Source: Ectothiorhodospiraceae bacterium WFHF3C12
GTDB lineage: Bacteria; Pseudomonadota; Gammaproteobacteria; Nitrococcales; Nitrococcaceae
Length of the DNA: 64,000 bases
Reading direction: 5' to 3'
NCBI GenBank assembly: GCA_013519935.1
Contig: JACDUA010000003.1
Location: 62,001 to 126,000, forward strand
The stretch's first letter is position 1. Every line of letters begins with the position of its first letter. The notes under the pieces were generated by a model that was not told the origin of the DNA, searched no databases, and saw nothing but the letters and a program-made list of their open reading frames with translations. Shown here one piece after another: positions 31,807-36,727 of this stretch. The position numbers and the translations under genes were made by a program.

Positions 31807-32015
31807 GAATCGGCCTCCTGTGCGCACGGGGTCCCGGTTCCCCTTGAACGAACGTCTCACAGGGCGACCCAGGGCCCTTTGACCGACGTCAATGCGTGGG
31901 TAGCTAACGCGACGCCTTCCCTGCCGCAGCCTGAAGGCGCCGAGGGACTGACGAGCATCTCAAGTCGATGGCCACGGATGGCTGGAGCGCGGGGCTCAAA
32001 CCGATACCGATTTCG

Positions 32016-32057
32016 GAATGCGAATCGTTTGCATTCTCTCGATACCGTGTGTACGCT
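32016..32057 (+). promoter_or_regulatory. Fur-box-like palindrome and promoter of a candidate small RNA
   Basis: GAATGCGAA-TCG-TTTGCATTC (32016-32036) is a 9-3-9 palindrome with one mismatch, similar to Fur boxes of GC-rich proteobacteria. It overlaps a possible -35 (TTGCAT, 32029-32034), followed after 17 nt by a modest -10 (TACGCT, 32052-32057). No protein gene starts nearby. What follows is a structured stretch ending in an intrinsic terminator. Confidence 0.5.
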
Positions 32058-32063
32058 CTGCAC

Positions 32064-32154
32064 TGTCGATGCCTCGCTCAACCCGCATCGACATCAAGTA
32101 ACTCGCTCCTAAGCTAGCCATTTTGGGGCGGCTCCACGCCGCCCCGTATTTTTT
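32064..32154 (+). ncRNA. Candidate small RNA of about 90 nt, possibly Fur-regulated
   Basis: The segment holds a perfect 9-bp stem, TGTCGATGC (32064-32072) with GCATCGACA (32085-32093), around a 12-nt loop. A single-stranded linker follows, and then the intrinsic terminator at 32125-32154. CTCGCTC occurs twice in unpaired positions, once in the loop and once in the linker, like the seed regions of base-pairing sRNAs. The promoter, Fur-like box, length and terminator resemble the arrangement of RyhB/PrrF iron-sparing RNAs, although I see no sequence similarity to them. The start point is estimated. Confidence 0.5.
32125..32154 (+). terminator. Intrinsic terminator of the candidate small RNA
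   Basis: GGGGCGGC (32125-32132), loop TCCAC, GCCGCCCC (32138-32145) and then GTATTTTTT form a strong Rho-independent terminator. It lies 47 bases before the HAD-like gene and has no upstream protein gene on this strand that it could serve. Confidence 0.85.
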
Positions 32155-32200
32155 GACCTGAATACAAACGCTTGCCGGGCACCTTCAGGGAGGGAAATCC

Positions 32201-32902
32201 ATGTGGGAAAGCGCCGTCCGCTGCCGCCTGCTCATGGACTGGGAAGGACCCCTGCTGGACCCGGGACCCGGCATGCTGCTGGCCCTGCGCCGGGCCTGTC
32301 TTCGCGCCGGCCGGCCCTTGCCCGTTGAAGAAGACCTCTCCTGGGTACTGAACACGCCGCTGGAAGGCGCCCTCGAAGCGCTGCTCGGGCCCGGCTCGGA
32401 GGCGGAACGGACGCAGGTAATGGCCAATATCCCCGTCTACTTCCAGCGGTGGGGCCGCTATTGGTGCCGGGAGCAGGCGGGCGCCCGAGCCATGCTCGGC
32501 AATCTCAACGAGGCCAGCAGCGTCGAGACCGTGCTCTTCTCGGCCGAGACCGCGCCGGGTGTTCAGACCCTACTCACCCACTACGACCTGGAACGCAGCT
32601 TCGATCGTATCCTCTGCGCACGCCGGCAGGCCTGCATGCAGTGCAAGGCCGCGACCGCCGAGCGGCTGTCGCGCCAGTGCGATCCGGCCGATCGGCTGTT
32701 GGTCTGGCTCACCGACGATCCCCGCGAGCTGCGCTTCGCCAAATACGTCGGCATTCCGTCCATCGCCGCGGGCTGGGGGCGCGCCACGCCGGAGGAGCTG
32801 GAGGCCGAGGCGCCGGCCATGCTCGCCCCGGAGCCGCATGACGTATTGCGGCTTCTGGCGGGGCTTGGGAGTGCCCGGGAACCCGCCGTGGCCGTGGGCT
32901 GA
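32201..32902 (+). CDS. HAD-superfamily-like protein with altered catalytic motif
   Basis: The 233-residue protein has the order of HAD phosphatase motifs. Motif I reads LLMDWEGPLLD instead of DxDGT: the first Asp is kept and the second is Glu. There is a helical cap, a motif II-like VLFSAE, a Lys in the CMQCKAATAERL helix, and a motif IV-like VWLTDDPRELRFAKYVGIPSI. It resembles phosphoglycolate-phosphatase-type HADs. Asp to Glu at the acid/base position may weaken or change activity. The ATG at 32201 has GGGAGGG seven bases upstream. Confidence 0.7.
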   Translation: MWESAVRCRLLMDWEGPLLDPGPGMLLALRRACLRAGRPLPVEEDLSWVLNTPLEGALEALLGPGSEAERTQVMANIPVYFQRWGRYWCREQAGARAMLGNLNEASSVETVLFSAETAPGVQTLLTHYDLERSFDRILCARRQACMQCKAATAERLSRQCDPADRLLVWLTDDPRELRFAKYVGIPSIAAGWGRATPEELEAEAPAMLAPEPHDVLRLLAGLGSAREPAVAVG

Positions 32903-34976: not shown

Positions 34977-36275
34977 ATGGACATGATGGACATTATCGAG
35001 AATTACGAGTCGGTGGTGCGCAGCTACGTGCGCAGCTTCCCCACCGTATTCGAGAAGGCGCGCGGCTCCTACCTCTACAACACGGAGGGCGAGGCGTTCC
35101 TGGACTTCTTCGCGGGCGCCAGTGTCATGAACTACGGGCACAACCACCCGGAGCTCAAGAAGGCGCTGCTGGACTACCTCTCCAATGACAACGTCGTGCA
35201 CAGCCTGGATATGGCCTCGGTCATGCGGGCCCGCTTCCTGGAAACCTTTCACGACAGGATCCTCAAGCCCCGCGGCATGAATCACCGCGTGCAGTTCCCG
35301 GGACCCACCGGGACGAACGCGGTGGAAAGCGCGCTGAAGATCGCCCGCAAGGCCACGGGCCGCCCGGGCGTGGTCGCGTTCACGAACGCCTTCCACGGCA
35401 TGACGCTGGGTTCCCTGTCCGTCACGGGTAACCAGTTCAAGCGCGACGGCGCCGGCGTCCCGTTGTCCTACACGGAGTCCATGCCCTACGACAGTTACTT
35501 CGGGGACGACTTCGACACCATCGACTACCTGGAGAAGATGCTCCAGGACGGAGGCAGCGGCGTCGGCCATCCTTCGGCGGTCATTGTCGAGACCGTGCAG
35601 GCCGAGGGCGGCGTCAACGTTGCCAGCGGCGAGTGGCTGCGCAAGCTTCAGGATTGCTGCCGGCGCAACGACATGCTGTTCATGATCGACGACATCCAGA
35701 CCGGCAACGGCCGCACGGGCCACTACTTCTCCTTCGAGGAGTTCGGTCTCGATCCGGACGTGGTCACCGTGTCCAAGTCCATTTCCGGCTTCGGCTTCCC
35801 GCTGTCCATCGTGCTGGTGAAGCCCGAGTACGACATCTGGGAGCCGGGCGAGCACAACGGCACCTTCCGCGGCTTCAATCCCGCCATGGTCACGGCCAAG
35901 CGGGCCATCGAGCTGTTCTGGAGCGATGACAGCTTCGCCAATGAGGTGCAGGAGAAGTCCAAGCACGTCCGCGCCCGCCTGGCCGCCCTGGTGGAGAAGT
36001 ACCCGGAGGCCCAGGGCACGGTGCGCGGCCGCGGTATGATGCAGGCGGTGGCGTTCGAGAACGAGGACATCGCCGGCGCCATCTCCCAGCATTGCTTCAA
36101 GCGCAACATGATCATCGAGACGGCTGGTCCGAACGACGAGGTGTTGAAGCTGCTGCCACCGCTGACCACCGAGATGGACGACCTGGACCGGGGTCTGGAT
36201 CTCATCGAGGAGTCCCTGCGCGCCGTGCTCGCCGACATGGGCATCGGCGGCCACCAGCCCGCTGCGAACCAATAA
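34977..36275 (+). CDS. ectB: Diaminobutyrate--2-oxoglutarate transaminase EctB
   Basis: The 432-residue class III aminotransferase makes L-2,4-diaminobutyrate from aspartate semialdehyde and glutamate, the first ectoine-specific step. NYESVVRSYVRSFPTVF at the start, FFAGASVMNYGHNHP, and the PLP lysine at about residue 267 (TVSKSISGFG) are typical of EctB. Length matches the family (about 420-430). The ATG at 34977 has GAGAGG seven to eight bases upstream. ectC follows 62 bp downstream, but ectA, normally upstream of ectB, is absent from the window. Confidence 0.95.
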   Translation: MDMMDIIENYESVVRSYVRSFPTVFEKARGSYLYNTEGEAFLDFFAGASVMNYGHNHPELKKALLDYLSNDNVVHSLDMASVMRARFLETFHDRILKPRGMNHRVQFPGPTGTNAVESALKIARKATGRPGVVAFTNAFHGMTLGSLSVTGNQFKRDGAGVPLSYTESMPYDSYFGDDFDTIDYLEKMLQDGGSGVGHPSAVIVETVQAEGGVNVASGEWLRKLQDCCRRNDMLFMIDDIQTGNGRTGHYFSFEEFGLDPDVVTVSKSISGFGFPLSIVLVKPEYDIWEPGEHNGTFRGFNPAMVTAKRAIELFWSDDSFANEVQEKSKHVRARLAALVEKYPEAQGTVRGRGMMQAVAFENEDIAGAISQHCFKRNMIIETAGPNDEVLKLLPPLTTEMDDLDRGLDLIEESLRAVLADMGIGGHQPAANQ

Positions 36276-36281
36276 TCAACG

Positions 36282-36317
36282 GCGGCGCCCCGGCGTGTAT
36301 AGCCGGGGCGCCGCTTT
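36282..36317 (+). terminator. Strong hairpin between ectB and ectC
   Basis: GCGGCGCCCCGGC (36282-36294) pairs perfectly over 13 bp with GCCGGGGCGCCGC (36302-36314) around GTGTATA, followed by TTTAAT. It sits just after the ectB stop and 21 bp before the start of ectC. With only three Ts it could be a partial terminator or a stabilising stem that sets the ectB:ectC ratio. Confidence 0.55.
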
Positions 36318-36337
36318 AATCGCGGAGGTGCGATTGC

Positions 36338-36727
36338 ATGAAGATCGTAAAGATCGACGACATCATCGGAAGCGACCGCGAAGTGGAAGGTCCGGGCTGG
36401 GTCAGCCGGCGCATGCTGCTCAAGAGCGACGGCATGGGCTTCTCATTCCACGAGACCATCATCCCGGCCGGAGCGGAGCTGCACCTTTGGTACAAGAATC
36501 ACCTTGAGGCGGTTTACTGCGTGGCCGGCAATGGCAGCATCGAGGACAAGGCCACCGGAGAGGTCCACGAGATCCGCGACGGCGTCCTCTACGCCCTGGA
36601 CAACCACGATGCCCACATCCTGCGTGGCGGCACCGAGGACATGCGGTTGATCTGCGCCTTCAATCCGCCGGTCACGGGCCGCGAGACCCACGACGAGGAC
36701 GGCTCGTACAACCTCGTGGAAGACTAG
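36338..36727 (+). CDS. ectC: L-ectoine synthase EctC
   Basis: The 129-residue cupin protein reads [21 protein letters not shown] through HNHLE-like NHLEAVYCV. The catalytic residues known from ectoine synthase structures are all present: Glu57, Tyr85 and His93. EctC closes the ring of N-gamma-acetyl-diaminobutyrate to give ectoine, using iron. The ATG follows a GCGGAGG ribosome site. The required acetyl substrate is made by EctA, which is not encoded here. Confidence 0.97.

Follow-up and report, generated by a model that had tools for sequence, protein, structure and literature searches.

A candidate Fur-controlled iron-sparing small RNA in the leader of a HAD-like protein gene

A palindrome resembling a Fur box, followed by a hairpin and an intrinsic terminator, is located in the 340-nt intergenic region 31861-32200 of the window (i.e., the whole stretch of 64,000 nucleotides that was analysed), between a DUF6064 gene on the minus strand and a HAD-like gene on the plus strand (32201-32902). 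The locus raises the question of whether these elements specify an iron-responsive small RNA, belong to the leader of the downstream protein gene, or serve both. The features concerned are the following:

32017..32035, unstranded: Fur-type box AATGCGAATCGTTTGCATT, 26.1 bits with the Fur position weight matrix (PWM); same form in family genomes
32018..32048, plus strand: putative promoter, ATGCGA (32018-32023), 19-nt spacer, TACCGT (32043-32048)
Plus strand: alternative putative promoter, TTTGCA (32028-32033), 18 nt, TACGCT (32052-32057)
32056..32154, plus strand: predicted small RNA of ~90-100 nt, its start (uncertain by several nt) placed from the promoter and its end from the terminator
32064..32093, plus strand: stem-loop 1, perfect 9-bp stem (32064-32072 / 32085-32093) with the 12-nt loop CTCGCTCAACCC
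32073..32079, plus strand: seed copy 1, CTCGCTC, unpaired in the loop of stem-loop 1
32094-32124, plus strand: linker between stem-loop 1 and the terminator
32102..32109, plus strand: seed copy 2, CTCGCTCC, in the linker (CTCGCTC at 32102-32108), complementary to GGAGCGAG
32125..32154, plus strand: intrinsic terminator, GGGGCGGC-TCCAC-GCCGCCCC (stem 32125-32132 / 32138-32145), then a T-run (T6, 32149-32154)
32201..32902, plus strand: HAD-like protein gene with D-x-E-G, CxxC and WLTD; Shine-Dalgarno sequence (SD) AGGGAGGG at 32187-32194

The box had been described in the first-pass annotation as a 9-3-9 palindrome. It is present and is the best-scoring Fur site in the window (26.1, the next best reaching 15.3), but the arms of GAATGCGAA-tcg-TTTGCATTC (core 19-mer 32017-32035) are complementary at eight of the nine positions, with one mismatch. 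None of 2000 Markov sequences reached its score; the PWM was derived from boxes at the family's iron-transporter genes together with the textbook consensus, leaving out the HAD loci. By an exact-form search in 23 family genomes, the same form of the box was found at iron ABC-transporter genes of the FbpA/FbpC type, the gene names being assigned by eye from translations. The host genome encodes a Fur protein (NF006999 match of 184 bits, cut-off 146), along with Irr-like and Zur-like regulators. Control of the unit by Fur, with binding predicted, is well supported because the box is strong, the Fur gene is bona fide, the same box form occurs at iron transporters in the family, and Fur-like boxes accompany all four HAD members (see below). 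A further strong Fur box in the host (G000:C81:130586-130602; L118) lies directly 5′ of the gene for a small membrane protein, which we take, by eye, to resemble DUF2061. Two separate Fur-like boxes are located between divergent FbpA- and FbpC-type iron transporter genes in a genus of the family that has small genomes (L112, L113, L115, ~1500-1590).

As in the class of iron-sparing small RNAs, the box overlaps the putative promoter. The hexamers were placed by eye against the pattern TTGCGA/TTGCAA-17-TACCAT/TAACTT upstream of the HAD relatives. A promoter overlapping the palindrome had already been proposed and candidate hexamers could be found for it, but these are poor, and a consensus sigma-70 site was not found at the Fur-box promoter.

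The statement in the first-pass annotation that no protein gene follows does not hold: the HAD-like gene starts at 32201, 46 nt past the T-run, and the Fur box is common to its relatives. Its product belongs to a subfamily marked by D-x-E-G instead of DxDG, CxxC and WLTD..EL, which, in the samples from the family, the order and the class, is confined to the host, G004 (one copy) and G005 (two copies), i.e., in three genera of one family, and is poorly covered by Pfam. An undescribed Fur-linked HAD-like protein family is thereby indicated. Generic HAD matches in the class, lacking the DxEG/CxxC features, were set aside; the sole match in one scan of genome contigs, from Microbacterium, was regarded as chance.

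Fur-like 19-mers precede the start codons of the three HAD relatives by 43, 36 and 39 nt and score 20.7, 11.7 and 9.5; these scores were reached in 0, 10 and 8 of 2000 Markov simulations and by 0, 0.07% and 0.17% of 150-nt segments of real genomes, respectively. Two of the three relatives adjoin uptake genes of the TonB/siderophore or haem type: one G005 copy neighbours a PepSY-TM protein, a TonB-dependent receptor and FecR, and next to the second G005 copy are genes for a TonB receptor, a periplasmic binding protein and a FecCD permease. Since the relatives have Fur-like boxes so close to their start codons, the Fur promoter most likely belongs ancestrally to the HAD-like gene, and the predicted RNA would therefore at the same time form the 5′ leader of that gene. 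The distance from box to start codon in the window is 165 nt versus 36-43 nt in the relatives, which suggests that hairpin, linker and terminator constitute an extra segment of ~125 nt in the leader.

The structural elements described earlier for this segment were all confirmed, namely the perfect 9-bp stem-loop, the linker, the strong intrinsic terminator with its T-run, and the occurrence of CTCGCTC in both loop and linker. The predicted fold of the RNA has an energy of -34.5 kcal/mol (z -4.66 versus dinucleotide shuffles), and a coarser scan ranks the segment in about the top 1% of the window by folding (7 of 659 segments as extreme). The linker copy of the seed is engaged in only weak local pairing; the occurrence of the 7-mer twice in a 97-nt RNA is unremarkable by itself. 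The fold and terminator typical of a short structured transcript are thus present in the DNA, the transcript itself being predicted. A mini-ORF (ATG..TAA, 32069-32101; MPRSTRIDIK) begins within the 5′ arm of stem-loop 1 and stops just past it.

Candidate targets were sought in the whole host genome as occurrences of GGAGCGAG, the complement of linker CUCGCUCC, 1-14 nt before ATG/GTG; a 7-mer version of the search was also run. Filtering by ORF and coding bias left ~15 plausible gene starts. Four of these belong to iron or haem respiratory enzymes: narG (TIGR01580, 920 bits), sdhC (PF01127), cytochrome oxidase subunit I (coxA; PF00115) and an FdhF/YdeP-family oxidoreductase, a Mo/Fe-S enzyme (TIGR01701); the other ~11 have no obvious iron link. 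Complementarity to the seed extends over 9 nt at sdhC and 10 nt at coxA, while the adjacent sdhD carries a second 9-nt match, on its start codon, and gltD (Fe-S) an 8-nt match. Among background starts, at least 8 nt are matched in 4 of 229 and at least 9 nt in 1 of 229, and shuffled seeds give matches at sdhC and sdhD together in 0.7% of trials.

As the gene list is approximate, the base rate (5% of genes encoding iron proteins) assumed and the iron-enzyme class counted after the matches had been seen (though iron enzymes and sdh were expected beforehand), the binomial P of ~0.005 for 4 of 15 makes an enrichment of iron-sparing targets suggestive rather than conclusive. The sdh result alone weakens to roughly P 0.1 when several canonical targets are allowed for. 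Duplex energies of these targets fall only within the best 3-11% of background, and the CUCC within the seed makes it similar to an anti-Shine-Dalgarno sequence, so that many starts will be matched. The targeting that had been foreseen for CUCGCUC is supported by target prediction, as complementarity to ribosome sites at sdhC/sdhD, coxA, narG and the FdhF-like gene (P about 0.005-0.01) and as the match at gltD; repression is predicted, and the iron-sparing reading falls short of proof.

We consider it slightly more probable than its negation (roughly 0.52) that the locus specifies an orphan Fur-controlled iron-sparing small RNA, which would result from termination within the leader of the Fur-regulated HAD gene. 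When iron is plentiful, Fur on 32017-32035 would block the promoter; when iron is scarce, transcription would proceed from ~32056 and mostly end at the terminator, yielding a stable RNA of ~100 nt. Its CUCGCUC(C) seeds, in the hairpin loop and the linker, would base-pair at G-rich ribosome-binding sites on the transcripts of respiratory enzymes that use iron (sdhC, sdhD, cytochrome oxidase subunit I, narG, the FdhF-like enzyme and perhaps gltD), by which translation would be blocked and iron spared, while read-through of the terminator would allow expression of the HAD-like gene. More tentatively, the unit could have a dual output, with termination giving an RNA that acts in trans against sdhCD, coxA, narG and the FdhF-like gene and read-through giving the protein, the small RNA having arisen inside the HAD leader. 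The early suggestion of an unrecognised iron-sparing RNA is partly supported, by the evidence for Fur control and by target prediction; it overlooked that the promoter most likely belongs ancestrally to the HAD gene.

The main rival is that hairpin and terminator are a cis-acting leader only, serving premature termination or attenuation of the HAD gene, with the short RNA a by-product devoid of targets in trans. The promoter would be the gene's own, as in the relatives with a Fur box directly upstream (36-43 nt), and no obvious second promoter lies between the terminator and the HAD gene; no antiterminator fold is apparent, however, since the terminator stem forms in the 5′UTR fold and its arms have, by inspection, no strong competitor. 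Nor does the mini-ORF at 32069 have a Shine-Dalgarno sequence or a telling codon run. In the HAD leader of G004 (L032, last 31 nt before 1483), an 11-bp hairpin (-20.8 kcal/mol) covers the Shine-Dalgarno sequence, which suggests translational control of that gene, and post-transcriptional leader control may recur in the HAD family. A purely cis-acting leader would leave unexplained why the exposed seeds match sdhC, sdhD, coxA and narG, and we regard it as unlikely.

Still less probable is an independent small RNA gene with a Fur promoter of its own, the HAD gene being served by another promoter and the Fur link of its relatives being incidental. The strong terminator between RNA and HAD gene would fit such an arrangement, but Fur-like boxes, with scores in the extreme upper tail of the background, stand at all four HAD members, in two cases beside iron-uptake genes, and promoter-like hexamers are similarly spaced across the members of the family.

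No homologue of the RNA was found by BLAST in 59 genomes, by pattern search in 54 or, with a covariance model built on this one sequence, in 95 relatives, and there is, consequently, no covariation; the conservation of the stems in relatives that the first-pass annotation had looked to was not encountered. The collection contains no other genome of the host genus, and the lack of a homologue therefore neither supports nor strongly refutes function. The best other covariance match (E 0.003, one genome) was rejected, having neither an adjoining Fur box nor a shared seed. Similarity to the 3′ end of ettA (24-26 nt, four relatives, best E 2.6e-4) is treated as chance: the matches are coding (..LNPHRIK), and the ettA end of the host itself is less similar to the RNA than those of the relatives. 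Plasmid and phage collections gave no match. In Rfam, no family reached its gathering threshold for the predicted RNA; at relaxed E, suhB/mmgR (E 1.6; 14.7 bits versus a gathering threshold of 41 bits), AniS (E 3.9) and an antisense-strand match (E 3.4) were all at chance level. The least probable reading, in which there is no RNA gene and the intergenic region merely brings a Fur box together with a chance hairpin and an unrelated terminator, draws on this lack of conservation and of Rfam matches and on the commonness of generic GC-rich hairpins (7 of 659 window segments), but it is at odds with the order and spacing of box, promoter, hairpin, linker and terminator on one strand and with unpaired or weakly paired seeds complementary to iron-enzyme ribosome sites.

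RyhB of Escherichia coli and PrrF of Pseudomonas are RNAs of ~90-110 nt with hairpins and an intrinsic terminator that repress sdh and other iron enzymes. Both have direct Fur boxes (PMC7377471). The candidate shares with them the Fur box at the promoter, a similar predicted length, the hairpins and terminator, and the predicted repression of sdh and iron enzymes, but it has a different seed and lies inside the leader of a protein gene; the RyhB, PrrF and NrrF covariance models of Rfam gave no match, in keeping with the earlier remark that its sequence differs from RyhB/PrrF. IsrR of S. aureus represses fdhA and a glutamate synthase, with narG a target and sdhC a reliable prediction, and FsrA of B. 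subtilis acts on sdhCAB and gltAB (PMC11257911). The predicted target set of the window RNA overlaps with both (narG, fdhA, glutamate synthase and sdhC for IsrR; sdhCAB and gltAB for FsrA), and C-rich seeds would pair at ribosome sites as in IsrR, although it has two seeds versus three C-rich regions, and no sequence relation to these RNAs of a different phylum was found. BrrF of Burkholderia, the targets of which include sdhC, shares the Fur promoter of hemP and arises by processing of the 3′ end of hemP mRNA (PMC7377471). A Fur promoter common to an iron-sparing RNA and an iron-related protein gene would likewise exist here, but the candidate precedes its gene and ends at a terminator, whereas BrrF is cut from the 3′ end. 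Iron-sparing RNAs have originated repeatedly, with unrelated sequences and the same targets. If real, the present one would be lineage-restricted and outside every Rfam family, its targets resembling those of IsrR and FsrA, and would show that such RNAs can be born in the leader of a gene already under Fur control.

Elsewhere in the window (~34977-36727), an ectB-like gene (class III aminotransferase), with no obvious ectA directly upstream, is followed by an ectC-like gene. On the minus strand at ~5845, there is a gene for a SufC-like ABC ATPase, and part of a suf cluster for iron-sulphur cluster assembly is therefore probably included in the window.
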